This document shows positions 21,332-48,160 of a stretch of 50,966 nucleotides of DNA, piece after piece. Each line of letters starts with the position of its first letter. Position 1 is the first letter of the stretch. The position numbers and the translations under genes are program-made. The stretch spans positions 1 to 50,966 of the forward strand of contig VHBA01000012.1 in the NCBI GenBank assembly GCA_016872175.1, given 5' to 3'. The DNA comes from Sphingomonadales bacterium. GTDB lineage: Bacteria > Bacteroidota > Bacteroidia > NS11-12g > UBA955. Below the pieces are notes generated by a model, which saw only the letters and a program-made list of their open reading frames with translations, had not been told where the DNA came from and searched no databases.

Positions 21332-22084
21332 ATGCATCTGCACTGCTGTATAGATGGTGTAAACTTCACGGCCAGCGTCGCCGATGGCACAGACCTCAGC
21401 CAGGGTTTCGGACCCAATGGCGACAATGCCCTTGCATTCCACATACCACCGGCAGAGATTGCACCCATTCGTGTGGGTGATTTTGTTGGCAGCGTAGCCG
21501 CCGGCAGCGGTGCCAATTGCGAGGTGATAAAATTCTGTGCCCACGGAAACGGCACCCACACCGAATGTATTGGCCACATCACCCGCGAAAGAAACAGCGT
21601 CAATAAGCTGATACAACCCGGAATGATGGCCGCCTGCCTCATAAGCGCCACCCCCGAAAAACAAGGTGAAGACTGGGTTATAACTGCAGAAAATTTCAAG
21701 AATTGCCACCTTCAAAAAACCCCGGCCATTATCATCCGTACCAACAATATTTTAGACATACGCGGGAAAAACTGGAGTGGCACCAACCCCTGCTATTTTG
21801 AGCCTGCGGCCATACAACTGCTGGTAGAGGCCGGATATGAACACATACTGACTGATTTACCCAGCATAGACCGTGAAGAAGACGGCGGCGCAATGGCATC
21901 GCACCACGTTTGGTGGCAGTATCCGCAAAATCCGCGTCTGCATGCCTCCATCACCGAACTAATTATGGTGCCCGAAGATGTTCAGGATGGTCTGCACCTT
22001 CTTAGCCTTCAGTTTGCCCCCATCGAATCGGATGCTTCACCTTCACGCCCAATTATTTATCCTCTAACACCTGTAAGACCGTGA
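21332..22084 (+). CDS. Cyclase-family (kynurenine formamidase-like) protein
   Basis: A 250-residue protein with the cyclase-family metal motif, here H71-GNGTH76-TE78-CIGH82: HxGTHxDxPxH with Glu for Asp. Further signals are VGDFVGSVAAGSG, ILTDLPSIDREEDGGAMASHHVWW (the family's late D and H region), and LLSLQFAPIESDASPSRPI. Members hydrolyse N-formylkynurenine, aryl formamides or cyclic amides with Zn or Mn; the substrate here is not determined. The next gene starts with GTG overlapping this TGA (GTGA), suggesting coupling to a glycosyltransferase, an unusual pairing. Confidence 0.75.
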   Translation: MHLHCCIDGVNFTASVADGTDLSQGFGPNGDNALAFHIPPAEIAPIRVGDFVGSVAAGSGANCEVIKFCAHGNGTHTECIGHITRERNSVNKLIQPGMMAACLISATPEKQGEDWVITAENFKNCHLQKTPAIIIRTNNILDIRGKNWSGTNPCYFEPAAIQLLVEAGYEHILTDLPSIDREEDGGAMASHHVWWQYPQNPRLHASITELIMVPEDVQDGLHLLSLQFAPIESDASPSRPIIYPLTPVRP

Positions 22085-23106
22085 CGGCCGGCAGCGAAAA
22101 ATGGCTCTACTTCTTCAACATGCTGCTATCGCGCATGGTGAATGCAGGCATGCGTCCAACCAAACTCAATCCGCAAAAAATCCTCATCATCAAATGGGAT
22201 GAGCTGGGCGATATGGTCACAGCAACTCCCGTATTTTCAATGCTGCGGGCCCGCTTTCCCGAGGCATACATAGAACTTATTACCAAACCTCAGAATGTTC
22301 CGCTGGTCAAATACGACACAAATCTGGACTGCATATCGTCTAATATTGAAAGCTGGAAAGGCCGCTATGACCTACACATTGAACTTCGCGGCACCTGGAA
22401 ATCATTCTTCAGAACCTTCCGCTATATGCCCGGCTACCGCCTGGACCGCGGCTGGGTGCGTTTTCTGCAGCGCGGAAACCAACCGCATGAAACCCTCACC
22501 AATTATCGCATTGTGGCAGCATTGCTGGGCGACATACCCATGCATAAGCCCTACATTGCCCTTTCGGCAAGCGATGATGAAAATGCTGTAAAGCACCTTC
22601 AACAAATTGGCACAGACAACTTTATTGTTTACCATACAGGGGCCCGAAAAGCCCTAAGACGCTGGCCTTCGGCGAATTTTGCCGCATTGGCGGATTATGT
22701 ATACAAGCAGTTCAACCTACACAGCGTTTTTGTTGGCACGCCCGACGAACTGCCCCAAATTCAAGCCATTACCGGATTGATGGAAACACCGTTCATTACC
22801 GCCACAGAAAACCTAAGTATCACAGAACTGGCCGCACTCATTTCCAAAGCCCGCGCTTTTGTTGGCAATGAAAGTGGTCCTCTGCAAATTGCCGATGCCG
22901 TGAATATTCCATCCCTGTCATTCTTCGGTCCCGGTGTAAAAGACGTTTTTTATCCGCAGCATCCGCAATCCATGGTTATTCATAAAATTTTACCATGCAA
23001 TCCCTGCGATCAGGTGCACTGCATACACCCAGAAAACCCTTGTATTAACCGCATAAGCATTGAAGAAGCAAAAAATGCATTGGGTTTAGTATTAAGAAAT
23101 TTTTAG
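22081..23106 (+). CDS. Glycosyltransferase family 9 (heptosyltransferase-like)
   Basis: A 341-residue GT-B enzyme of the GT9 family, which adds heptose-type sugars to lipopolysaccharide core. The N-terminal domain has ILIIKWDELGDMVTATPVF, the middle has NFIVYHTGARKALRRWP, and the C-terminal donor domain has AFVGNESGPLQIADAVNIPSLSFFGP. It starts at a GTG (22081) overlapping the previous stop. CDQVHCIHPENPC near the C-terminus is Cys-rich as in other family members. Acceptor and exact sugar are unknown. It probably works in envelope glycolipid assembly at the inner membrane. Confidence 0.85.
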   Translation: MTAGSEKWLYFFNMLLSRMVNAGMRPTKLNPQKILIIKWDELGDMVTATPVFSMLRARFPEAYIELITKPQNVPLVKYDTNLDCISSNIESWKGRYDLHIELRGTWKSFFRTFRYMPGYRLDRGWVRFLQRGNQPHETLTNYRIVAALLGDIPMHKPYIALSASDDENAVKHLQQIGTDNFIVYHTGARKALRRWPSANFAALADYVYKQFNLHSVFVGTPDELPQIQAITGLMETPFITATENLSITELAALISKARAFVGNESGPLQIADAVNIPSLSFFGPGVKDVFYPQHPQSMVIHKILPCNPCDQVHCIHPENPCINRISIEEAKNALGLVLRNF

Positions 23107-23133
23107 CAAAATCCTAATTTCAAGGCTTGTATT

Positions 23134-23167
23134 TTGGGGGGGAAAACGCGAATTTGTTGTATATTTG
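23134..23167 (+). promoter_or_regulatory. Promoter of rnz
   Basis: TTG (23134-23136), 23-bp spacer, then TATATTTG (23160-23167); the -7 element is 7 bp from the ATG at 23175. Confidence 0.5.
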
Positions 23168-23174
23168 GTAACCA

Positions 23175-24092
23175 ATGCACCGCTCCTTTGAGGTAACCGT
23201 ATTAGGCACATCATCTGCCTCCCCCACCAAAACCCGCTTTCCCAGCAGTCAGCTGGTGCGGCTGGAAGGGGATTATTTTCTCATTGACTGCGGCGAAGGC
23301 ACACAACATCAGCTGGTGCGTCTGGGCTTGCGCATGCAGCGAATCCGCTACATTCTTATCACCCACCTGCATGGCGATCATGTATATGGCTTACCCGGAC
23401 TTATCAGCAGCATGTCGCTGTTCGGCAGAACAGAAAAGCTCACCATCGTTGGGCCCGAGGCCTTGAAAGACCTGCTGGATGTAATTACACGTACTACAGA
23501 ATCCCGCGTAACGTTTGAGATTGAGTACATTAAAACCAATCCCGAAAAAGCCGAAACGGTGCTGGCCAACCGCAAGTGGAGCTTGAGCACCGTGCCGCTT
23601 AAACACCGCATTCCCTGCACCGGCTATATACTTCGAGAGCAAGGTCCCGAATTGCGACTAAACCCTGCTGTCTGCGAACAGATGGGTGTTCCGGTTGAAT
23701 GCTACGAAGCCCTGAAATGGGGCGATGACTGGCACAGGGAAGACAGCACCGTCGTTTCCAACTCTTTGTTAACCCTGCCGGGAAACCCAAACCGCAGCTA
23801 TGCTTACATTTCAGACACCATCTATGATGAAAGTATAGTGCCGCATATTCAGGGATGCAGTCTGCTGTATCATGAAGCAACTTTCCTGCACAACCTGCTC
23901 GAGCGCGCCACCGAAACCCACCATACCACATCCAAACAAGCCGGACAAATTGCGGCCAAAGCCGGTGTTGGAAAACTGATGATTGGGCATTTCAGCAGCC
24001 GATACAACCAAACAGACGATTTACTTACCGAGGCGCAAGAACAATTTAAGGATGCTTTGCTTGCCAATGAGGGTCTGACATTGCAGGTTTAA
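23175..24092 (+). CDS. rnz: Ribonuclease Z (tRNA 3'-endonuclease)
   Basis: RNase Z removes 3' trailers from pre-tRNAs as a dizinc metallo-beta-lactamase-fold enzyme. The 305-residue sequence has GTSSASPTKTRFPSS, the HxHxDH motif THLHGDH (H64, H66, D68, H69), VPLKHRIPCTGY, SDTIYDE, LLYHEATFL and LMIGHFSSRY, all standard for the family. Length is normal. It has its own short-leader promoter, with GT9 ending 68 bp upstream. Confidence 0.95.
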   Translation: MHRSFEVTVLGTSSASPTKTRFPSSQLVRLEGDYFLIDCGEGTQHQLVRLGLRMQRIRYILITHLHGDHVYGLPGLISSMSLFGRTEKLTIVGPEALKDLLDVITRTTESRVTFEIEYIKTNPEKAETVLANRKWSLSTVPLKHRIPCTGYILREQGPELRLNPAVCEQMGVPVECYEALKWGDDWHREDSTVVSNSLLTLPGNPNRSYAYISDTIYDESIVPHIQGCSLLYHEATFLHNLLERATETHHTTSKQAGQIAAKAGVGKLMIGHFSSRYNQTDDLLTEAQEQFKDALLANEGLTLQV

Positions 24093-24231
24093 GTAACAAG
24101 TCATTTCCGTCTAATTTAATCAACACAATTTTGAAAGTCTGTAGGTCGTTTTAAGAAATTAAACCTACTATTATTAATTTAAACCTTTGAACAGAAGAAA
24201 TATGCACTTATCAATAAGTTATAAAATAAAT

Positions 24232-24259
24232 TTGACTATGAAAAAAAAAAGTAGATTTG
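24232..24259 (+). promoter_or_regulatory. Promoter of the GldM-like operon
   Basis: TTG (24232-24234), 17-bp spacer, and TAGATTTG (24252-24259) match the Bacteroidota consensus. It leaves a leader of about 40 nt before the ATG at 24305. Confidence 0.6.
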
Positions 24260-24304
24260 CATGAAAGACAATACATTTTAAATTAACCAACCTTTCAAAT
24301 AAAT

Positions 24305-24940
24305 ATGCTAAACAAAATTATCGCATTAGGTTTTTTCTTCATCAATGCTGGCGTATTTGCGCAGGCTAACATAGGAGCTGAAGAAAACAATATTATCTAC
24401 CGAGGGCTGCCCAACCCCATTTCTGTGGCTTGCGGCAACAAAGATTCTTTTTTTATAAAAGAGAAATCTGCCGCACTGGAAGTAAAAAATGACAATGGAA
24501 AGCTTTATCTGAATTGCCTAAACGTAAAGGAAGATACGGCCTTTATTGTATTTGGACTTCAAAATTCCACCTTGCAAAGAAAATTCGTTTTCCCGGTTGC
24601 CGATGTTCAGGAACCGGTGATTCGTTTAGGGGCAATAGATGTTATAAACCGCGAAGTATCACGAGATGCACTTATGGTGCAAAACTCGTTGGTGGCGATT
24701 TTAGAAAATTTTACATACGATGGTGTTAAATGCTCCGTTACCGGCTACCAGATGCGGTATTTCGATCCGGTGTATCAGGATTTTAAAACCCTTGAAGTTA
24801 AAGGAGCCTCCCTGTCTCCTATAAATCCCGCATTGGCTAAATTAAAGGCAGGAGACCGTTTTGAACTGAAGAATATTCAGATTATGACACCAGGCAATAA
24901 AATTATCACGCACCCGGATATCCTAATAACACTTAAATAA
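24305..24940 (+). CDS. Secreted GldM C-terminal-domain-like protein
   Basis: A 211-residue protein with a signal peptide (MLNKIIALGFFFINAGVFAQA). Residues 27-93 resemble GldM domain D3 (NIIYRGLPNPISV), and 95-211 resemble D4: FPVADVQEPVIRLG, an ALMVQNSLVAILENFTYDG helix-strand, CSVTGYQMRYFDP, SPINPALAKLKAGDRFELKNI and ILITLK at the end. GldM is the inner-membrane gliding and T9SS motor protein whose D4 contacts the outer-membrane ring. This protein has no transmembrane helix, so it is a stand-alone periplasmic form. It has its own promoter and the next gene starts 2 bp after its stop. Confidence 0.65.
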   Translation: MLNKIIALGFFFINAGVFAQANIGAEENNIIYRGLPNPISVACGNKDSFFIKEKSAALEVKNDNGKLYLNCLNVKEDTAFIVFGLQNSTLQRKFVFPVADVQEPVIRLGAIDVINREVSRDALMVQNSLVAILENFTYDGVKCSVTGYQMRYFDPVYQDFKTLEVKGASLSPINPALAKLKAGDRFELKNIQIMTPGNKIITHPDILITLK

Positions 24941-24941
24941 T

Positions 24942-26669
24942 ATGAAGAACGTATTTAAAATTTTATGCATAGCAGTATTGGCCATGCAGGCTAAAGAGGC
25001 CATTGCCCAGGAAAAATTTGATATTAGTGTATCTACCGACGAAACCAATGTATTGTATGTAGGACTTATCAATACCATTCAGTTTAATGTAAATTATATT
25101 CCGTCCGAAAAATTGTTTGTTCTGTTTACGGATGAAGAAGATAAAGTACTTGACAGCAATGTATTCAGCATAAACCGAATTTCACCCAATACCTATACGC
25201 TTCACATGTCAAGAAGGTGGGGCAATACAGTAATTGCCCATTTATACAAAAGTGGAGCAGATTCATCAATCCCGATGGGAAAAAAAAGGTTTAAAATTCG
25301 CAATGTTGCCAGACCAGTGACGGAAATTTCTTTGTTACCCCTGCAAAAGCACTGGGATTATTTGATGAATTCACCAACATTAAATGTTACTATGCTAGGC
25401 ATGTTGAGAAAGGATATACAATATACAATAACCGGATATGACTTTACAGTAATCTCAAAAGATGGTCCTCGTAAAGTTATAGCAACCGGTAATTCACTGG
25501 CACCGGCAAAACAACTTTTACAGAGAGTTGAAATAAATAATTTTGACAGTGTTTTTTATATGTTCTCCAACATAAAGGCTATAGGGCCTTCCGGGACTGT
25601 TTACCTGGAAAATATTAGCAGCATACTCACCCACGGCAAGCCGGCCTATCAAAGTCTGGAGAACTTTTATGGAAAGAAAATGGAGCAGTATTTCGACCTC
25701 AACAAAGCCTTACAAAACAAACTGCTTCAGATTTCTTTAAAAATACACAATGCCGCCATTGCAGGAAAAATACAACCCTACTGGGACCAGTCCCTTAGAA
25801 AAAAATGCACCCCGGATTCCTATGCCATGAACGGTTCTAAATTGATATTAACCCAAATCCCACTCAACAACGATCCGGAAGATCTAATAGACACCTTCTT
25901 TTCAATCCCCTTGAAAGAATCAAGTATGACAGCCGATTTGCGTTTTTGTTTCAAATTATCTGACCAAAAGAAAGGTTCTGTTCGAAAAGATATTCAAAGC
26001 ATTGCTCCCATGTATTTCGAGAGATTTCCGAATGGTTTATCATACAACATACCAACCGGTTGGTTTTCATACAAAAACATTAATTCTGTATTGAGTGCTG
26101 AGGATATGAAATTCTTAGAAGCATACAGCTGGTATAAAAATTTGGAACCATTATATGTTGAATATTCAAATGATGCATTTCAAGGCAGACTAGAGGATTT
26201 TGAAGAAAATAAGACAATAACACATACGTACAATGGAATTGGGGTAACAGAAAACCTGGGAAATAATTTACAGGAAAACTGGCGCAGTCAGCTATACAAA
26301 GCATTCAAAGAAAATAAATTCTCTTTAACCATGGGTTTCGATAAACCCATCGCTGAAACTGAATTTAATAAACTCCATACCATTCAAGAGTATGTCTTTG
26401 TACAGGACACTGCTTATCCAGATGACTTTGAGAAACTCATAGAAGTATATTACAATAAAATTCCTACCTCTTTTGACTCAATTTATTTCGTTTTTAATAG
26501 GGACATGCATTTCATGAAAATCGCACAAAAAAACAATGAGGACATCAAATTTACGTATTCCGTCAATTTACAAAATGTTAAATCCAGCATGAATCCGCAT
26601 GCATTTTGCTTGCTGGAAATATTACTAAACGAAAGCAGGCAAAAATTGCAGAAATTCTCTCCAAAATAA
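24942..26669 (+). CDS. GldM-C-like domain fused to an unrecognised C-terminal region
   Basis: A 575-residue protein with signal peptide (to about AIAQE). Residues 28-235 repeat the pattern of the upstream protein (NVLYVGLINTIQF, FKIRNVARPVTEISLL, ITGYDFTVI, GNSLAPAKQLL, NISSIL), so both belong to one GldM-C-like family. The remainder (about 236-575) has KIHNAAIAGKIQPYWDQSL, weakly reminiscent of GldN, and RFPNGLSYNIPTGWFSYK, but no family I know. Two copies of a GldM-C-like module in one operon, without the membrane anchor, suggest an accessory or modified secretion complex. No T9SS tail is visible. Function is unknown. Confidence 0.6.
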   Translation: MKNVFKILCIAVLAMQAKEAIAQEKFDISVSTDETNVLYVGLINTIQFNVNYIPSEKLFVLFTDEEDKVLDSNVFSINRISPNTYTLHMSRRWGNTVIAHLYKSGADSSIPMGKKRFKIRNVARPVTEISLLPLQKHWDYLMNSPTLNVTMLGMLRKDIQYTITGYDFTVISKDGPRKVIATGNSLAPAKQLLQRVEINNFDSVFYMFSNIKAIGPSGTVYLENISSILTHGKPAYQSLENFYGKKMEQYFDLNKALQNKLLQISLKIHNAAIAGKIQPYWDQSLRKKCTPDSYAMNGSKLILTQIPLNNDPEDLIDTFFSIPLKESSMTADLRFCFKLSDQKKGSVRKDIQSIAPMYFERFPNGLSYNIPTGWFSYKNINSVLSAEDMKFLEAYSWYKNLEPLYVEYSNDAFQGRLEDFEENKTITHTYNGIGVTENLGNNLQENWRSQLYKAFKENKFSLTMGFDKPIAETEFNKLHTIQEYVFVQDTAYPDDFEKLIEVYYNKIPTSFDSIYFVFNRDMHFMKIAQKNNEDIKFTYSVNLQNVKSSMNPHAFCLLEILLNESRQKLQKFSPK

Positions 26670-26762
26670 ATTTGGGGATTTCTGTTTACATGCCACTTCC
26701 AATATAATAAACACCTTTTTACTGCGTTAATAACTCTACAGGCCATGCCTATGGCACTGTTT

Positions 26763-26770
26763 TATCTTCG
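26763..26770 (+). promoter_or_regulatory. -7-like element TATCTTCG before ftsK
   Basis: One mismatch to TAnnTTTG, 10 bp before the ATG at 26781. Supports the shorter ftsK start over 26745. Confidence 0.35.
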
Positions 26771-26780
26771 CAATCTACCC

Positions 26781-29273
26781 ATGCTGGCTAAAAAACAAGA
26801 AAAACAAAAGCTCGAAGATTTCGACCGGTCTGACAAGGGCGCCCAAACCGCTCCCATAGACCGCAAGCAGGTTGCTGATATTGCAACCCTTAAAAACGAG
26901 CAGGCACGCAAAGTATTTGGGTTTCTGCTGCTAGTATTGACCGCTATACTGCTTATCAGTTTTGTCTCCTTTTTCTTCTCTTGGAAATCGGATCAGGATT
27001 TTCTGGCCGGTGGCGACTGGAAACTATTCAAGGCCAACCACGGTAAGGTTGAAAATGCCATGGGACTGGTTGGTGCGCGTTTGGGTTATTACTTCATCCA
27101 CAATGGATTTGGGTTGGCGGCTTTTGCATTGTTGCCATACATTGCCTTATCGGGGTTATTTCTTTTATTCAACTACAGGCCTTTTTCCCTGCTTAGAATT
27201 GCTATACATACCATTCTCTTCACCGCATGGTTCAGCCTTACACTGGGTTTTGTTTTTCATCCATGGTTTCCAGTGCTGGGTGGTACTTTCGGATATTTTG
27301 GCATAAGCAAACTAAATCAAATTATAGGATGGCCGGGCTCGCTAATTTTTCTGGTTTCCTATGCCGTTGTCTATGTAATGCTGTTTCTGAACCTCAATCC
27401 GTTTGACCGTATAAAACTGCCTTCCAAATCCCCTGTACCTGAAGCTGCTGTTGATGGTGATACTATTTCCGGAGCTCAAATCATTGAAGACGACCCTGAT
27501 ATCGTATTTGTGGATGAGGAAGATGAGGAAGATTATCAGCCAGTGGATGTGTCTGCCCTGCCGCCAATTGAACTGAAAATAAAAGAGGAACCACCTGTGG
27601 TTATTCAGCAGCCTGAACCTGTAACCGAGCCTGAATCCCGCACGCAGGTAATTGAACTGGAAGGCGATGACAACTTCCAGATTGAAGTAAAAACCGACAA
27701 TCCGGATGAATTTGTGGAAGAAAACGTAGGTGACACTACTGCCTCACATTTCGGCATAGACACTACCCACGACCCCACACTGGAACTCAGAGATTACAGA
27801 CATCCAACATTAGATTTACTGAATGACTACGGCAGTGGGAAAAAGCAGGAAATCGATATGAATGAGATTGAGAGCAGCAAAACCATGATTATTGATACCC
27901 TGAAGAACTACAATATCGGTATTTCCAAAATCATGGCCAGCGTGGGTCCTACGGTTACCCTGTATGAAATTATTCCGGCTCCGGGTGTGAAAATATCGAA
28001 AATTAAAAACCTGGAAGACGATATTGCCCTGAGTCTTGCCGCCCTGGGAATACGTATCATTGCACCCATTCCCGGTAAAGGAACCATAGGCATTGAAGTT
28101 CCAAACAAAAATCCGGAAATGGTACCCATGAAAGGGGTACTGGCCAGTAAAAAGTTCCAGGAAGCAGATATGCAGCTCCCCATTGCCCTGGGCAAAACCA
28201 TCAGTAACGAAATATTTGTTACTGACCTGGCCAAAATGCCTCACCTGCTTATGGCAGGAGCCACAGGGCAGGGAAAATCCGTAGGGTTAAATGCCATTCT
28301 GGTTTCACTGCTATACAAAAAACACCCTGCCTATATCAAGTTTGTGCTGGTTGATCCAAAAAAGGTAGAACTTACTTTGTACAACAAAATTGAGCGTCAC
28401 TTTCTTGCTAAACTGCCTGGTGACGGGGAAGCCATCATCACCGATAACACCAAGGTTATCAATACCCTAAACAGCCTGTGTGTGGAAATGGATAACCGTT
28501 ACAAACTGCTGCAGGACGCCATGGTGAGAAATATTGTGGAATACAACGCAAGGTTTCTGGAACGCAAGCTCAATCCTCAAAACGGGCACAAATTCCTTCC
28601 CTACATTGTGGTGGTGATTGATGAGGTAGCCGATCTGATGATGACCGCCGGCAAGGAAATTGAAACACCCATTGCGCGTATCGCACAGCTGGCAAGGGCT
28701 ATTGGCATTCACCTAATTTTAGCCACACAGCGCCCAAGTGTGAATGTAATTACCGGTATGATCAAAGCCAACTTCCCCGCCCGTATTGCCTTTCGTGTAA
28801 CCAGCAAAATTGATAGCCGTACCATTCTGGATGCTAACGGCGCCGATCAGCTGATTGGTAAAGGGGATATGCTTTACAGCGGGGGCAATGAAATGATTCG
28901 TCTGCAATGCCCGTTTGTGGATACGCCTGAGGTTGAACGCATTGTAGAATACATTGGCGAACAGCGGGCCTATTCAACCGCGTTTATATTACCGGAGGTA
29001 AAAGATGAAGTCGGTGAAGGCCGCGGTAGTGAAGGTTTTGACCCCAACGAAAGGGATGATCTTTTTGAAGATGCCGCCCGTGTGGTAGTGCAAAACCAGA
29101 TAGGCAGCACCAGTCTCATTCAGCGCCGACTGAAAATAGGCTACAGCCGTGCCGGCCGTCTTATGGACCAGCTGGAAGATGCGGGTGTGGTTGGCCCCAA
29201 CCTGGGTAGCAAAGCCCGTGAGGTGCGTATTCCGGATGAAATGAGCTTGGAACAGTTTTTGAACAACCTGTAG
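26781..29273 (+). CDS. ftsK: DNA translocase FtsK
   Basis: FtsK anchors at the division septum and pumps chromosomal DNA for XerCD-dif resolution. The N-terminus has about four transmembrane helices, followed by an acidic linker rich in Glu, Asp and Pro. The motor shows Walker A GATGQGKS (493-500), Walker B VVVIDEVADLMM (D614, E615), ATQRPSVNVITG and RIAFRVTSKIDSRTILD. The C-terminal gamma domain is RRLKIGYSRAGRLMDQLEDAG. The ATG at 26781 gives 830 residues starting MLAKKQEKQ; an alternative ATG exists at 26745. It lies 16 bp upstream of lolA, a common Bacteroidota pairing. xerD is 3 kb away. Confidence 0.95.
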   Translation: MLAKKQEKQKLEDFDRSDKGAQTAPIDRKQVADIATLKNEQARKVFGFLLLVLTAILLISFVSFFFSWKSDQDFLAGGDWKLFKANHGKVENAMGLVGARLGYYFIHNGFGLAAFALLPYIALSGLFLLFNYRPFSLLRIAIHTILFTAWFSLTLGFVFHPWFPVLGGTFGYFGISKLNQIIGWPGSLIFLVSYAVVYVMLFLNLNPFDRIKLPSKSPVPEAAVDGDTISGAQIIEDDPDIVFVDEEDEEDYQPVDVSALPPIELKIKEEPPVVIQQPEPVTEPESRTQVIELEGDDNFQIEVKTDNPDEFVEENVGDTTASHFGIDTTHDPTLELRDYRHPTLDLLNDYGSGKKQEIDMNEIESSKTMIIDTLKNYNIGISKIMASVGPTVTLYEIIPAPGVKISKIKNLEDDIALSLAALGIRIIAPIPGKGTIGIEVPNKNPEMVPMKGVLASKKFQEADMQLPIALGKTISNEIFVTDLAKMPHLLMAGATGQGKSVGLNAILVSLLYKKHPAYIKFVLVDPKKVELTLYNKIERHFLAKLPGDGEAIITDNTKVINTLNSLCVEMDNRYKLLQDAMVRNIVEYNARFLERKLNPQNGHKFLPYIVVVIDEVADLMMTAGKEIETPIARIAQLARAIGIHLILATQRPSVNVITGMIKANFPARIAFRVTSKIDSRTILDANGADQLIGKGDMLYSGGNEMIRLQCPFVDTPEVERIVEYIGEQRAYSTAFILPEVKDEVGEGRGSEGFDPNERDDLFEDAARVVVQNQIGSTSLIQRRLKIGYSRAGRLMDQLEDAGVVGPNLGSKAREVRIPDEMSLEQFLNNL

Positions 29274-37482: not shown

Positions 37483-38529
37483 TTATTCCAGCAAACTTAC
37501 ATATTCCCTGATACAGCTCAACTCGGTTTCAGCAATTAGCTTTAAAAAAGACTCCTTTTTATCAGTTTGGGCATCCTCAAGGCGATCATAATAGCGAAAA
37601 CGGTGTTCCTTGTCTCCTTTAAGATTGGCTATCACATAACCATGTTGTAATAATATCAAGTTCATAAGCAGGCGCGACGTGCGACCATTCCCGTCTATAA
37701 ATGGATGGATGGAAACCAGCCGCTCATGCATTTCTGCAGATAATAACACAGGATGCATGTGCTGATTTTTATAATACCATTCAAATAATTCCTCCATTTT
37801 CTGGGGAACAACCATTGCATTGGGCGGTATGTGTGTGCTCCCCCCAATTCTAACCTGTACATCCCTGTATCGGCCTGCATTTTCTTTGTCAATACCACGC
37901 AACACAAGTGCATGTATATCCAGCACAAAACGCTCCGTTAAGGGTTTTTTAACAGATACAAACTCCTGTATCAAGGCAATTGCTTCATAGTGATTAATGG
38001 CCTCCAAATGCTCACGCATAGATTTACCTGATACCGTAATTCCATGGTTAATTACCCTTTCTGTTTCCTGAAGTGTAAGTGTATTTCCTTCGATAAGGTT
38101 GCTATGATAAGTGTACTCTACTTCATATGCTTCGCTAAACTTAGCGCTCCCCATGTGCCTTACTTTATCAAGGCGAGTCTTACACTGATCTATCTCTTTT
38201 AATATTTTCCGAAGCTCTCCGGAAACAGCTTTTGCAGAAACCGCTCTGCACCGAACTTGCTCTTCAGCAGCTATTAGCACTTCTCGGGCGAGGGGCTCAT
38301 ACTGCAACTCCTTTACAATCTTTTCACTCAGCCAACGAACCAAAAGCTTCTTTTCAGGTAAGCCCAGCAAAGCCGCAATTTGCACCACCTGAGCTCTTAC
38401 CGGCAAGCGCTCTCCCTTCTCCATTCTGGTTATCAGTGATGAATCTATATGTAAAAGCCCTGCAAGCTCTTTCTGTGAAATGCCTTTTTCATGTCGGGCT
38501 TCTTTTATTAAGAATGAAAATGTTTTCAT
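37483..38529 (-). CDS. Fic protein with N-terminal XRE helix-turn-helix and inhibitory motif
   Basis: A 348-residue two-domain protein. Residues 6-60 are an XRE-type HTH (ISQKELAGLLHIDSSLITRMEKGER). The Fic domain follows with the active loop H275-PFIDGNGRTSR286 and an upstream autoinhibitory motif S143-NLIEG (the S/TxxxE[G/N] form), so AMPylation or another nucleotidyl transfer is expected to be restrained in cis. The combination suggests a DNA-binding regulator that also modifies a protein target. A strong promoter with a palindrome on its -7 side lies directly upstream. No antitoxin-like partner gene is present. Confidence 0.88.
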   Translation of the reverse strand: MKTFSFLIKEARHEKGISQKELAGLLHIDSSLITRMEKGERLPVRAQVVQIAALLGLPEKKLLVRWLSEKIVKELQYEPLAREVLIAAEEQVRCRAVSAKAVSGELRKILKEIDQCKTRLDKVRHMGSAKFSEAYEVEYTYHSNLIEGNTLTLQETERVINHGITVSGKSMREHLEAINHYEAIALIQEFVSVKKPLTERFVLDIHALVLRGIDKENAGRYRDVQVRIGGSTHIPPNAMVVPQKMEELFEWYYKNQHMHPVLLSAEMHERLVSIHPFIDGNGRTSRLLMNLILLQHGYVIANLKGDKEHRFRYYDRLEDAQTDKKESFLKLIAETELSCIREYVSLLE

Positions 38530-41065: not shown

Positions 41066-44000
41066 ATGAAAAAACTCATTACCCTGCTATTTTGTATTTA
41101 TGGCACCGCAGCAAACCTTGCCATAGCGAATCCTACTCCACCATCTGCTAATTTCAGTGCAGCTCAATGGTCGGGTTGTGCACCATTTACGGCAACATTT
41201 TATAATGCCTCATCGGGAGGAACTGGTTCTTACGCCTGGAATTTTGGCGATCCATTGAGCGGAATCTACAATACCAGTAACGCCTGCAGTCCGGTTCACA
41301 CCTTTAACAATCCGGGAACTTATACGGTTCAGCTTACGTTTACGGTAAACGGAAATCCATATTCCACCACCCACATAGTTACAGTTCATCCAAGACCCAA
41401 TCCCAATATATTGGGCAAAGACACCGTTTGTGACGGATCAACCGAAAACTACTCGGTAACGGGAACTGCCGGATCCTCCTATTTTTGGACTACTTCAGGG
41501 GGAATTATCAACGGCGCCAATAATGGAAGTACTGTATCTATAAATTGGCCGGCACCAGGTGTTCATAGTGTATCTGTAACAGAAACGAATTCATTTGGTT
41601 GCTCAAGAACCAAAACCATCAAAATTCTTGTTGCCAACCAGCCACGCCTTGGCAATTTTTGCAGTGGCAGAAAAGAAGGTTCTGACGGCAACCCCAAGGA
41701 TTCTTCAACACCTTGCATTTGCCAGTATGCTATTAGAAATTTTGAAGCGTTGGATTTAAACTTCCAGCTTTTAAGCAATGATATTTACACCTTTCAATGG
41801 TCTGTAATCGGTGGCACCATTATAAGCGGCCAAGGCACCAACTCACCACAAATCCAAGCGGGTTTCGGGCCCACCATGACCATAAAACTGATAGTTTCCA
41901 ACCCATTTGGCTGCACCGACAGTGGCATTTGCGTCTATGACATCTGCCCATCACCGAAAGCATCGTTCATGGCAGATACTGCCTGTCTTAGTTCAGCAAC
42001 CCAATTCAGTGCTTTTTCCTCGTCTTTATATAGCCAAATCACCTCTTTTTCATGGAATCTGGGGAATGGCAATATACAAATCAGCAATACCGGCAATTTT
42101 GCGTGGACCTTTCCAGCGCCAGTTATTTATCCCGTAACCCTAACAGTAACCTATGCAAACGGCTGCTCAGATGACACTACCATTCAAGTGCGGGTAAATC
42201 CGGGCAATGCGCCTCCCATCAACTGTGTGGGCACGGTTTGCAATAATACTAAACATTGTTACGGAACACCTTATTTCGCCGGCGCCACATACAATTGGAC
42301 GGTTATCGGAGGAACAGGCACTCCTAATGCAACCGGTGACAGTATTTGTGTTTTATGGGGCAACGGACCTGCAGGTATTATTTCTCTTAATGTAACAGGC
42401 GGCCCTTACCAATGTGGCCGAAATACAGTGAATGTTCCAATTTTCCCGGCTACAGTAAATTTGTACGGGCCCGATACCGCCTGTGTTGGCGATAACGTAA
42501 ATTACAACACTGATATAATACCGGGCAGTTGCTATTCATGGACTGTTACAACACCGAGCGGAAGCACCATTAGTTTAAGTCCTTCCAACAATCCAGGCAC
42601 TATGATAGAAGGTAATTTCCCGGCCCCCGGCATTTATATCATCAACCTGGAGGTGGAAAATCAGCTCGTTTGTTGCAAAGGGAGAATATCAAAAACCATT
42701 GTTGTACAGGATAAAATTAAGATTTTTGGATCTCGTCAACATTGCGAATTCAGCACAATCAACTACACATCCAGTGTGCCTGTAATTTGGGGCCCGATAG
42801 GAAACGGAACTCTCATCTCCAGCACCACAACCTCTTGTATCATACAATGGGGAGCAGCAGATATAGGATTTATCAGGGCTACTGCCATTTCCCCCAATCT
42901 GGTGTGCGATAACGATATCACCTTGCCTGTTGTGCTGGTACCCCGCCCGCCAAACCCTGCCATCAATGGGCCGGCTATATTATGCAAGGGCACAAATTCA
43001 ACTTATTCATTCGATTCATCTGACCTTATCAGTTCTTGCTCCTGGAATGTGACTCCCGCCGGAGGTGTTACGTATACAACATCCTCGCGGAAAAGCAAAA
43101 ACATACTATTTACCATTCCCGGCACATACGCAATCACTGTTAATTATGTTGGCCTGGCACCCTATTTCTGTACGTCTTCATCTCAACTAACCGTAACTGT
43201 TGTGGACACAGCATGTCCATCACTAAGCGGCCCTACATCATCTTGCATTGGACAAACCAATACTTATACCATTTCTTCTAACCCTGGCAACATTTGGCAG
43301 TGGAGTGTGATTGGAGGCTCCATTGTTTCTCAGACCGCTACCAGTTTGTCCGTTACATGGAACAACATCAACCAAGGTCAGGTGATTGTACAAAACACCA
43401 AATGTCCAAAACTCTGCATTCGTAAAGTAACCATAAATGCCATACCAACCGGGGCCATTACTCTGGGTAAGGCGTCTTGCAAAGGGGACTCTATAAGATT
43501 GTTTGGTCCTCCCGGTTACACCTACAGTTGGAGTGGACCTTCCGGTTTAGGAACCAGCCAGCATTATCTGGTAAATACTACGGGGCTTCACACATTGGTC
43601 ATTTCGCAATTCGGCTGCAGTGCTACCCTTACCCAAAACGTTTCACCTATCCCTAAACTGCCAAAACCCAATGTGAACGTAGTATTTAACTGCATGACCG
43701 CCCCGGCCTTGCCCATTCCGTATCAGATGACTGCTACGTACAATCCTAACTGGCAATATGCCTGGAGCCCCCAAACTGCTACACCGGGCGCTTCTGACAC
43801 ATTGCATCAGCATTATTCAACCGTAGCAGGAAGTACTCATACGGTCATTGTCACAAATGAACATGGCTGCAAAGACACCGCTTCCGTTACTGTTACCGGC
43901 AGCTGTGTTGTTTATGATCCGGGCAATGGATGCAGCACCCCCTGCAATGCCATGGTTAATCCTACATACAACCCATGCACGGGAAAATTCACAGCCAACT

Positions 44001-47000
44001 TGATTAGTGGAAATCCCATCGCCTATTTCTGGAATTATGGCGATGGTTTTTACAGCAATCAACAAAACCCAGAGCATTGGTATTATACCACCGGTTCTTT
44101 TATGGCAACCCTAAGCTATTACTGCAATTGCTCATGGGTAACAGTAAAAGTTCCTGTCAATGTTCCCTATATACTTAGACCTAAACTCAAAACAACTTTT
44201 CCCTTTAGTTGTAATTATAAAACCATACAGCTGAATTATGCGCCCACCTCCGTAGTACTGGGCACTGGAGTAACGTGGAATGTAGATTGGGGCGACGGAT
44301 CACCTTTGTACATCGGTGGTACACTCCCCCAAAACCACACCTACAACTATACTAGCAATACAGACTTTATCATTACTTACACCGTCACCGCTCCCAACCC
44401 CCTGTGCACTGTGGTAATTAAAGATACCGTTCGTATGAAATACTTCGATGCTGACTTCAGTTTTTGTAATGGTTGTGTAGGCCAGCCGGTGCAGCTGGTT
44501 GATCAGAGCAGCTCTCCGGTACCTATCGTTCAGTGGAAATGGAATTTTGGAGATGCAACCACATCTAACCTGCAAAGCCCTTTCCACATATATAACAATG
44601 CCATAACCTATTTTCCAAAACTCGTTATTACCAACCAGCAAGGTTGCAAAGATTCACAAACGTATCCCATTACCATTACTATTTTTAATGCCGGTAGCTT
44701 AACATTTACCAACAATGGTGGGCCGGCAACACCTGCAAGTCCCGGTGTATACCATATTTGCGAAGGCGATGTATTTGTAAGCTCTGCACCCTTTAACAGC
44801 AACTGGACTTACAGCTGGAATGATGGAAAAAGTGGCAACAAAGACACCATTAAACAATCTGGCCTTTACTGGGTAATTGTTGGTAACGGAAATGGGTGCA
44901 CCGATACCCTTGGTCCATTCCAAGTGATTGTTAATCCCCGCCCCAATGCAACCATATTGGCTCCCGATTCCATTTGCTCCAACCTCTGGACTTCCATACA
45001 TGCACTTCAGGGTCTCGGATATTCATATGCCTGGAGCAGCTCTCCTGTTGGCGTTTCAGGCACAAGTCCTTCGGCATGGTGGGGTGGTCTCATTGGCCCT
45101 GTAAATGTATATTTGCAGATCACCAACACCAACGGATGTTCATCCAGAGACACCGCCCTCGTTATAGGTGTAGCTGCACCCAACGTAAGTGTTAGCAATA
45201 ATACGTACTCCCCTTTGTGCAAAGGCGATTCCGTTCAAATCAACCTAAACATTACCGGTGCTTATACCAATATTGTATGGGCATCCGGGCAAATTGGGGT
45301 AACCAGCATTTGGGTATATCAAAATGGCGTTTATCGCGTTACTGTTACCAATGCATTAGGATGCAGCCAAACGGTGCAGGCATATGTTAACAATATTTTT
45401 GAAAGACCTGATATTAGAAATGCTCCAAAAGGTTGTTATTCCATTTGCTCTACAGCCGCACCGGTAAAAATTTGCGGGCCATATGCCACAACCGGACAAC
45501 CACTCAGTTATCAATGGTTCTTAAACAACAACCCATTTAGTACCAATGCCAATTTATCGATTACAACCGGCGGAAACTATCACCTCGAGGTAACCAACAT
45601 CAACACCAATTGCAAGTCCATTTCGTCTCCATTCAGCGTAACCTTGGTATCGGGTCCGATAGCAAACATAAATAGCCCGTCACCCAATCCTGTGCTTTGT
45701 GTTGGGAAACAAGCCTGCATCACTGTTACGGTGGACCAACCTAATTCAGACATTTTATATACCTGGTATGAAGGCAATAACACACTACCGGACACAGGCA
45801 CTTCCCTGGTAATTTGCCACCCGGGCGTTTACATTCTTCAGGCATTCAAGAGTGAATGTTGCAAGGCCTTTGATACACTGATTGTAAAAGAAGGCGACTG
45901 CTGCTGGGATTCTACCGTCAATTATACCGTTATCCAGGATAGTACCGTCTATACCACAAGTCAGGTATGGGATGGTAAATATTTTGTAGCCGGCAGACTC
46001 TTCGTGCGTAATAAAGCAGTGCTGGATATGACTACCATAGATGTTGTCTTTGACCGAGACGGTGAAATTATTTTTGAAGATAGCAGCCAAGTTCGAGCCA
46101 ACAATAGTGTTTTCCGCCCCTGCGACATGCATGATGTGTGGGTTGGATTTACCTTCAAAGATTCCAGCTCCGGCGTAATTCACACCAGTCTGTTTAAAAA
46201 TGCCAGGCATGCTGTGGATATTAATACCCAAGGACCCCAGGCAGTGAAAATAACCGATAACACTTTCAGCAATTGTCATATTGGTGTTCGAATCCTGCGC
46301 GGCGGAAGAAATTGGAATGAAGGCATTACAAAAAACTCTTTTGTGATTAATAATTACAATTTCACCACACCGGGCCTCTATCCCAATTTCGATTACTTCG
46401 GAATAATACTCAATGGTGTCCGTATGGAAGAAATTATCAGTCAAAATGACTTCCGAAATTCTGACCGTTTTAATCAACCCAATCGCTATTATGGTATTTA
46501 TGCCCTTCGTTCAGGATTTAACGCCAGTGAAAACCGATTCACCAACATGTACCGAAGCATTGATGCAGCCTATGGTTCTGGCTTCGTTAATATTGAAAAT
46601 AACGAAATTGAAAAGACTGCCCAGGGCCGCTATGCAAGCGATGTACAGATTAGGGTAAGCGACCACAAGGAACCCGCACTGATTTTTGGCAATGAACTAC
46701 GCAATTCCGACAACCGTCATACTGGCACTGTAGGCATTTTTGCCGAAAACATGTTTGGACTAAATATTCGGGATAATAATATCAAAGGTTTTGATGTTGG
46801 TATTTGGACCAAACGGCTGGAAAGTTGCATTATCAACGAAAACGATATTGATCAGGGAGGGGATATAGGAATTTTAGATTCTCTTAGCCGAAAACTGGAT
46901 ATCAACTGCAATGTTATCAGACTAAAAGATTGTAAATCCGGCATTTTAACGTCATGTAACAGCGTTGGGATTTATATGCAGGCTGGCAATAACACCAACA

Positions 47001-48160
47001 ACATTTACACTAATTGCATTTTTGATACTCGACGCAGTATTTTCCTACGCAGCAATGCAGCAGGACTTCCTGTGCCGCTTGTTCTTAATAATTACCTCTA
47101 CAATTATCTAACTGCGGGAATAAATATTACGGGGCATAGCGGAAGCATAGGTAGCCCGCTGCAACCCGGAAGAAATACGTTCGTTAGCAATAATTACGCC
47201 GGTGGCGCCAGGGAAATCGTCGCTTCTCCATTTGGCAGCATTAGCGAAAGTTGCAACTTTGGTGTGCTCGGAAATGGCGCGGGTGTTACCACCACTTTGT
47301 GCCCAACGAACACCATGCTAAGCTCAACAGCGGCATGCGGACAGCAGATAAACAACCCTCGGCATAACAAACAGAACAAATGGGATATCTGCGAAAATTA
47401 CAGTGGTAAAACCGCCGTATTCGAAGAAATAAGCGGAACCGGCGTTGTAGTGGTAAAAATCGGTGATTTAAATCCGGCTAAAATTGCACCTCCCGAACTC
47501 TTTGCGGCCGGGTTGTCGTTAATTAGCCAAAAGTCCTTTAGCGAATTTGAAAATTTCATGCAGAAAATATCCATGCAGCAGTCACTTTCACAGTGGCAAC
47601 TTAATTATCTTAGGGCTCAGTTGGAAATCAGCAAAGGTAAAACCGAAATAGCACTGCAAATTTTACAATCAGCCAATCCAAGCATTGAAGAAGATAAAGT
47701 TGAACAATGGTTGACCATGCTATCATTGCAAAACAAATCCGGCATGCTGTCAGCATCTGAAAAGGCAACACTGCTTCAAATTTCACAAAGCCAAAGTACG
47801 CTCGCCAATGCATCCTTTGATTGGTTACATGCCTTTACTGGAAACCATGACTATCGGTTTGGTTGTTGGTATATCAATCCGGCCGGTGAGGGTGTGCGTA
47901 ATTTACCGGAAAACACCTTTGTGAATGTGATGCCAAATCCTACAGAAAATTTCGCCAATGTTCAATTCGCACTATCAGGAAATAAAACTAGTATCACCCT
48001 GCATGATCTCACCGGAAATTTACTCACCTCGGTTGAGCTGCAACAAGGCGCCGGTGCTTACAAATTGGATTTGCGCAACCTCTCTAACGGTGTATACTTG
48101 GTTAGTGTAACAGACAATGATAGTGGAGAGAAAAAGGTTACCAAATTGATTAAACAGTAA
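41066..48160 (+). CDS. Giant secreted PKD / beta-helix protein with T9SS sorting domain
   Basis: A 2364-residue surface protein with signal peptide (to about LAIANPT). The first 1600 residues are a chain of PKD and Ig-like modules, including SYAWNFGDP, SFSWNLGNG, YFWNYGDGFYS, VDWGDGSP and WKWNFGDATTS, with many Cys. About 1650-2080 is a right-handed parallel beta-helix (NTFSNCHIGVRIL, NRFTNMYRSIDAAYG, NNIKGFDVGIW repeats). A helical segment follows, and the last 80 residues (MPNPTENFANVQF, HDLTGNLLTS, LSNGVYLVSV) are a type A T9SS sorting domain. It probably binds or processes extracellular material; the ligand is unknown. Export through T9SS is expected from the tail. The gene stands alone between divergent aconitase and ruvC. 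Confidence 0.9.
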   Translation: MKKLITLLFCIYGTAANLAIANPTPPSANFSAAQWSGCAPFTATFYNASSGGTGSYAWNFGDPLSGIYNTSNACSPVHTFNNPGTYTVQLTFTVNGNPYSTTHIVTVHPRPNPNILGKDTVCDGSTENYSVTGTAGSSYFWTTSGGIINGANNGSTVSINWPAPGVHSVSVTETNSFGCSRTKTIKILVANQPRLGNFCSGRKEGSDGNPKDSSTPCICQYAIRNFEALDLNFQLLSNDIYTFQWSVIGGTIISGQGTNSPQIQAGFGPTMTIKLIVSNPFGCTDSGICVYDICPSPKASFMADTACLSSATQFSAFSSSLYSQITSFSWNLGNGNIQISNTGNFAWTFPAPVIYPVTLTVTYANGCSDDTTIQVRVNPGNAPPINCVGTVCNNTKHCYGTPYFAGATYNWTVIGGTGTPNATGDSICVLWGNGPAGIISLNVTGGPYQCGRNTVNVPIFPATVNLYGPDTACVGDNVNYNTDIIPGSCYSWTVTTPSGSTISLSPSNNPGTMIEGNFPAPGIYIINLEVENQLVCCKGRISKTIVVQDKIKIFGSRQHCEFSTINYTSSVPVIWGPIGNGTLISSTTTSCIIQWGAADIGFIRATAISPNLVCDNDITLPVVLVPRPPNPAINGPAILCKGTNSTYSFDSSDLISSCSWNVTPAGGVTYTTSSRKSKNILFTIPGTYAITVNYVGLAPYFCTSSSQLTVTVVDTACPSLSGPTSSCIGQTNTYTISSNPGNIWQWSVIGGSIVSQTATSLSVTWNNINQGQVIVQNTKCPKLCIRKVTINAIPTGAITLGKASCKGDSIRLFGPPGYTYSWSGPSGLGTSQHYLVNTTGLHTLVISQFGCSATLTQNVSPIPKLPKPNVNVVFNCMTAPALPIPYQMTATYNPNWQYAWSPQTATPGASDTLHQHYSTVAGSTHTVIVTNEHGCKDTASVTVTGSCVVYDPGNGCSTPCNAMVNPTYNPCTGKFTANLISGNPIAYFWNYGDGFYSNQQNPEHWYYTTGSFMATLSYYCNCSWVTVKVPVNVPYILRPKLKTTFPFSCNYKTIQLNYAPTSVVLGTGVTWNVDWGDGSPLYIGGTLPQNHTYNYTSNTDFIITYTVTAPNPLCTVVIKDTVRMKYFDADFSFCNGCVGQPVQLVDQSSSPVPIVQWKWNFGDATTSNLQSPFHIYNNAITYFPKLVITNQQGCKDSQTYPITITIFNAGSLTFTNNGGPATPASPGVYHICEGDVFVSSAPFNSNWTYSWNDGKSGNKDTIKQSGLYWVIVGNGNGCTDTLGPFQVIVNPRPNATILAPDSICSNLWTSIHALQGLGYSYAWSSSPVGVSGTSPSAWWGGLIGPVNVYLQITNTNGCSSRDTALVIGVAAPNVSVSNNTYSPLCKGDSVQINLNITGAYTNIVWASGQIGVTSIWVYQNGVYRVTVTNALGCSQTVQAYVNNIFERPDIRNAPKGCYSICSTAAPVKICGPYATTGQPLSYQWFLNNNPFSTNANLSITTGGNYHLEVTNINTNCKSISSPFSVTLVSGPIANINSPSPNPVLCVGKQACITVTVDQPNSDILYTWYEGNNTLPDTGTSLVICHPGVYILQAFKSECCKAFDTLIVKEGDCCWDSTVNYTVIQDSTVYTTSQVWDGKYFVAGRLFVRNKAVLDMTTIDVVFDRDGEIIFEDSSQVRANNSVFRPCDMHDVWVGFTFKDSSSGVIHTSLFKNARHAVDINTQGPQAVKITDNTFSNCHIGVRILRGGRNWNEGITKNSFVINNYNFTTPGLYPNFDYFGIILNGVRMEEIISQNDFRNSDRFNQPNRYYGIYALRSGFNASENRFTNMYRSIDAAYGSGFVNIENNEIEKTAQGRYASDVQIRVSDHKEPALIFGNELRNSDNRHTGTVGIFAENMFGLNIRDNNIKGFDVGIWTKRLESCIINENDIDQGGDIGILDSLSRKLDINCNVIRLKDCKSGILTSCNSVGIYMQAGNNTNNIYTNCIFDTRRSIFLRSNAAGLPVPLVLNNYLYNYLTAGINITGHSGSIGSPLQPGRNTFVSNNYAGGAREIVASPFGSISESCNFGVLGNGAGVTTTLCPTNTMLSSTAACGQQINNPRHNKQNKWDICENYSGKTAVFEEISGTGVVVVKIGDLNPAKIAPPELFAAGLSLISQKSFSEFENFMQKISMQQSLSQWQLNYLRAQLEISKGKTEIALQILQSANPSIEEDKVEQWLTMLSLQNKSGMLSASEKATLLQISQSQSTLANASFDWLHAFTGNHDYRFGCWYINPAGEGVRNLPENTFVNVMPNPTENFANVQFALSGNKTSITLHDLTGNLLTSVELQQGAGAYKLDLRNLSNGVYLVSVTDNDSGEKKVTKLIKQ

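Follow-up and report, generated by a model that had tools for sequence, protein, structure and literature searches.

The window, the whole 50,966-nt stretch of DNA that was analysed, contains two adjacent ORFs on the forward strand, P1 (24305–24940, 211 aa) and P2 (24942–26669, 575 aa), with the same boundaries as in the earlier note. They occupy a site between rnz and ftsK (Table 1). The P1 stop codon TAA (24938–24940) is followed by a single T and then by the P2 start codon ATG at 24942; the genes are 1 nt apart and not 2 bp, as had been noted, and this spacing is retained in two species. A promoter had also been proposed to drive the pair. The corresponding pattern, TTTG-N17-TAGATTTG, is indeed present upstream of P1; however, it occurs four times in the window against 1.28 expected and is not seen by eye in the intergenic region of the ortholog G005, so it is weak evidence for a promoter.

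Table 1. Features of the P1/P2 cassette and its borders (positions in the window).
Feature	Coordinates	Strand	Basis
Possible Bacteroidetes-type promoter, TTTG-N17-TAGATTTG, 5' of P1	24231..24259	+	Pattern match, weak
P1 signal peptide, residues 1–19, cleavage between VFA and Q	24305..24361	+	N-terminal hydrophobic segment; cleavage site by eye
P1 GldM D3, residues 20–104	24362..24616	+	hhalign to canonical GldM
P1 GldM D4, residues 105–211, plus stop	24617..24940	+	Pfam GldM_4th
P2 signal peptide, residues 1–22, cleavage between AIA and Q	24942..25007	+	Hydropathy; cleavage site by eye
P2 GldM D3-D4, residues 28–230	25023..25631	+	hhalign; Foldseek on low-confidence model
P2 GldM-to-GldN linker, residues 231–252	25632..25697	+	Gap between aligned domains
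P2 GldN-like unit 1, residues 253–398	25698..26135	+	Pfam GldN; hhalign
P2 second, divergent GldN-like unit, residues 399–575, plus stop	26136..26669	+	hhalign, unit 1 vs. unit 2
Block 5' of ftsK, right edge of the variable segment	26696..26738	+	Common to 7/7 species, by eye

Both proteins had been described as GldM-C-like. This holds for P1 and for the first 230 residues of P2, whereas the remainder of P2 is GldN. In profile–profile comparisons (hhalign), canonical GldM of the order was aligned with P1 residues 20–210 (E 1.5e-15) and canonical GldM with P2 residues 28–229 (E 2.3e-27), which is far beyond chance. P1 also passes the Pfam GldM_4th cut-off (37.3 bits versus 24.6), P2 has a weak match to Pfam GldM_3rd, and residues 325–411 of the GldM structure 6ys8 were weakly aligned with P1 residues 20–105 (phmmer E 0.05). 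The GldM motif quoted earlier is inexact in P2, where RPVTEISLLP lacks the LG. The equivalog model TIGR03517 gives weak scores of 17.9 and 21.2 bits for the two proteins, below its cut-off of 180, and both matches begin at model position 325, which is the start of D3.

Signal peptides had been suggested to replace the GldM membrane helices, and hydropathy analysis agrees: P1 and P2 both have a signal-peptide-like start, and no hydrophobic stretch of membrane-helix grade follows it in either protein. The motor part of GldM, i.e., the membrane helix and D1/D2, is missing from both according to alignment and hydropathy. Both P1 and the first half of P2 are evidently D3-D4 pieces carrying a predicted signal peptide instead of the motor part. 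AlphaFold models built from few sequences have an unusable confidence (pLDDT 43 and 48). With these poor models, all seven Foldseek matches of P1 under 0.001 and the top six matches of P2 are PorM/GldM proteins, the best for P2 being 6ey6 (PorM 315–516). The profile and structure comparison advised earlier was thus positive for both GldM and GldN by hhalign, and Foldseek on the low-confidence models is consistent with the GldM assignment. On the phylogenetic tree, the D3-D4 portions of both proteins form long branches within the family's GldMs and fall outside the genus's canonical GldM.

The approximately 340 residues of P2 that had previously defied placement are GldN-like. A search of relatives revealed that P2 residues 265–388 match the ORF located right behind gldM in many genomes. 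The C-terminal part alone scores 29.9 bits with Pfam GldN (PF19841; gathering cut-off 23), and canonical GldN was aligned with P2 residues 244–388 by hhalign (E 8e-17). Among the P2 orthologs, L108 scores 30.4 bits with the same Pfam model and L109 is not listed. The full-length GldN model TIGR03523 reports only the GldN of contig 47 in this genome, and not P2. When the two successive parts of the module were compared with five relatives, they were collinear (hhalign E 1.7e-5, score 39.1), while 60 column shuffles gave a score of at most 15.6; the doubling was undetected with three close sequences. A tandem pair of GldN-like units is therefore supported but not proven. The N-terminal helix segment RRxWRRID, a conserved element of canonical GldN, is absent from P2, which for this reason may not join the GldK ring. 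Taken together, the alignments show P2 as a predicted signal peptide, GldM D3-D4 and a GldN-like module without the GldM membrane helix, D1, and D2. The putative operon composition, GldM-C plus a GldM-C::GldN fusion, is well supported.

The host genome (2.26 Mb, 98.7% complete, by kinship a member of the class Bacteroidia) contains a single complete porP-like-gldK-L-M-N operon on contig 47. P1 and P2 lie on a different contig, unlinked to canonical gldK, gldL, and gldN, and no extra gldK or gldL was found beside them. Therefore, P1 and P2 are additional to the canonical set. SprA is encoded as well; its gene (contig C19, 22030–28958; L180, L181) is split into overlapping frames 22030–28299 and 28293–28958, by a frameshift, an assembly error or a genuine split. 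A 2364-aa protein at 41066–48160 (+) of the window combines PKD repeats and a NosD-like stretch with a C-terminal sorting domain of T9SS type A, and is a probable T9SS cargo. The host thus possesses what an accessory of the T9SS presupposes, a complete core (gldKLMN, SprA) and a CTD protein in the window. The window also encodes a Fic/DOC domain protein whose N-terminus carries an HTH domain (37483–38529, −). The two named database relatives are MAGs labelled Flavobacteriales and Bacteroidetes, and their isolate names can be read as pointing to fresh water. The alternative outer-ring adapter suggested earlier is a plausible candidate role, although the host already has a complete gldKLMN, P2 is missing the N-terminal helix of GldN, and the site has no extra gldK or gldL.

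GldM D4 is known to bind GldN. PorM D4 of P. gingivalis by itself binds PorN in a two-hybrid assay (PMC5790014). The D3 strands are swapped in the PorM dimer of P. gingivalis (PMC5790014). A designed disulfide backs the D4–PorN contact, and prediction places PorM between two adjacent PorN subunits, one D4 being bound (PMC12421860). GldN of F. johnsoniae has been proposed as the track surface pushed by the motors (PMC12635249). We consider it rather likely that P1 and P2 reproduce, in soluble form and without the motor, the contact of the GldM D3-D4 motor arm with GldN of the outer-membrane hub or track, and that they are an accessory of the T9SS/gliding machine. Through D3, P1 would pair with the first half of P2 in the manner of a GldM dimer, and their D4 domains would sit on the tandem GldN, forming a unit of two D4 and two GldN. 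Between them, the two proteins would provide a pair of D3-D4 arms and a pair of GldN units, which make one motorless contact. Such a complex would probably be an accessory or modulator of the host T9SS hub or gliding track, and could act as a linker, scaffold, or brake by binding surfaces of the GldN or GldM type; having no motor, it would not be a driver.

Like GldM/PorM (TIGR03517; Pfam GldM_3rd, GldM_4th), P1 and P2 have D3 and D4, which are presumed periplasmic with D4 expected to face GldN. Unlike GldM/PorM, they have neither the membrane helix nor D1 and D2, the signal peptide being joined right at the D2/D3 border, and score only 18–21 bits against the TIGR03517 cut-off of 180. With GldN/PorN (PF19841, TIGR03523), P2 shares the core unit above the Pfam cut-off; unlike them, its GldN is fused behind GldM D3-D4, is apparently doubled, and is devoid of the RRxWRRID segment. 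GldO, described as a GldN paralog (J Bacteriol 2010, as cited in PMC8986121), differs from P2 in being full-length and stand-alone. Surveys of 108 genomes from the order and 395 from the phylum revealed no second GldM-first GldM–GldN fusion, and every GldN match in the latter set except P2 is a stand-alone frame of 275–424 aa. Stand-alone GldM-C genes are rare in the phylum. These surveys are Pfam-based and miss very divergent paralogs, so the counts are lower bounds. No report of a GldM–GldN fusion was found in the literature searched, most subscription papers being outside its reach.

The closest counterpart is L073 from genome G015 (genus g10, same family), one secreted chain of 712 aa with a GldN-like module followed by two D4 domains, D4a and D4b. 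It shares the GldN-like module and two GldM D4 with P1/P2, but it is a single chain in reverse order and without D3. The profile of the P2 C-terminal part matches its residues 71–454 (E 7.6e-8). D4b scores 45 bits with the P1 profile versus 29 with canonical GldM and 8 with the P2 N-terminal part; D4a scores 35 bits with the latter versus 23 with P1 and 37 with canonical GldM. D4b thus appears closer to P1, while D4a matches the P2 N-terminal part no better than canonical GldM. On the tree, the GldN-like part of L073 is a long branch apart from P2, although joint grouping is not rejected (p-AU 0.109). Because the same modules are fused in opposite order, by descent or convergence, a joint function can be argued: the GldM D4 and GldN modules of L073 and P1/P2 seem to work as one unit, and that P1 and P2 belong together is supported. 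P1 and P2 may also, tentatively, form a self-contained complex of two D4 and two GldN, a passive transmission element of a rotary/track machine without a motor of its own, re-evolved at least twice by different fusions.

Elsewhere in the order, the GldN-like module stands alone in other genera, and the GldN-like proteins form one group separate from canonical GldN (support 90/96). This group includes P2 and the paralogs L071, L211, L212, L213, and L075, which, unlike P2, have no fused GldM domain. Stand-alone or tandem paralogs at L075:5316–7615, L212:3913–6116, and L213:4348–5430 are unlinked to gldKLM and share a conserved neighbourhood, judged by eye, with moaA/moeA on one side and a TonB-like protein and a response regulator on the other; other stand-alone paralogs are located beside dnaK, also unlinked to gldKLM. 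No GldM-C gene was found beside those whose neighbourhoods were inspected. The proteins L076:4569–5906 and L074:5055–6383 combine a signal peptide, GldM D3-D4, and MORN-like repeats and apparently put the GldM arm to a further use outside the motor. In L172:5601–6323, GldM D3-D4 follows a lipoprotein-like N-terminus (LALNC), and the neighbours of the stand-alone GldM-C genes L172–L174 in other families have no notable GldN-profile match. These conserved contexts away from gldKLM, the fusion of GldM-C to MORN-like repeats or its lipoprotein-like form, and the fast divergence of P1/P2 would fit modules that were recruited away from the T9SS and now form a periplasmic complex on their own, with a different task, e.g., sensing or envelope scaffolding. 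We regard this as unlikely, since exactly the two mutually binding T9SS domains were kept, twice, in different gene architectures.

A genome search for the same pair, as the earlier note advised, was successful: P2 orthologs are present in three of the seven genomes of the genus, with P1 ahead of them wherever the contig extends far enough. The remaining four congeners have an empty site, with an rnz–ftsK gap of about 90 bp. All seven genomes share the block 5' of ftsK, whether or not they carry the cassette (intergenic regions compared by eye). The listed ftsK ORF begins at 26745 (26745–29273, +); its orthologs begin with M(P/S/A)AKKQ, and the actual start is probably a later ATG near 26783. 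On the species tree, the cassette pattern requires three changes, e.g., one gain and two losses. A chimeric MAG was ruled out by the identical architecture and site in three assemblies. Among the three carriers, identity is 53–61% for P2 and 65% for P1, and 86–94% for flanking and canonical gld proteins. Its patchy presence and fast divergence imply that the cassette is dispensable for the T9SS. The pN/pS ratio is about 0.3–0.4, with pS near saturation, and the ORFs are intact in three separate MAGs; the cassette is under purifying selection despite the near-saturated pS.

The cassette has a GC content of 34–40%, compared with mostly 46–52% in its neighbours (lolA, 40.5%). An AT-rich cassette, patchy at one site, without a motor and with both sides of a single interface, might be a decoy or inhibitor that jams the T9SS or gliding by saturating D4 or GldN sites, either in self-regulation or as a selfish or defensive cassette. 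This seems quite improbable: no toxin, phage, or mobile genes were identified at the site, no P2 relative was found in viral, plasmid, and phage collections, and D4 and GldN in one chain would mostly satisfy one another. That the pair is a decaying, functionless gldMN duplicate, as the low interspecies identity and absence from four congeners might suggest, is scarcely credible given the intact ORFs in three species, the pN/pS values, the clean signal peptides replacing the motor part, and the retained 1-nt spacing.

If P1 and P2 are a motorless copy of the arm–GldN contact, they bear on an open mechanical step of the T9SS and gliding, namely, the way in which the GldKN hub or track is gripped by the GldLM motor. 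In the papers cited, the evidence for the D4–PorN contact comes from one designed disulfide, two-hybrid assays, and modelling. Here the contact between motor and track is seemingly isolated in a soluble module of two genes, one chain of which holds both partners, and purification and structure determination should be far easier for this module than for the ring. GldM D3-D4 and GldN would then be modules that are reused outside the motor.
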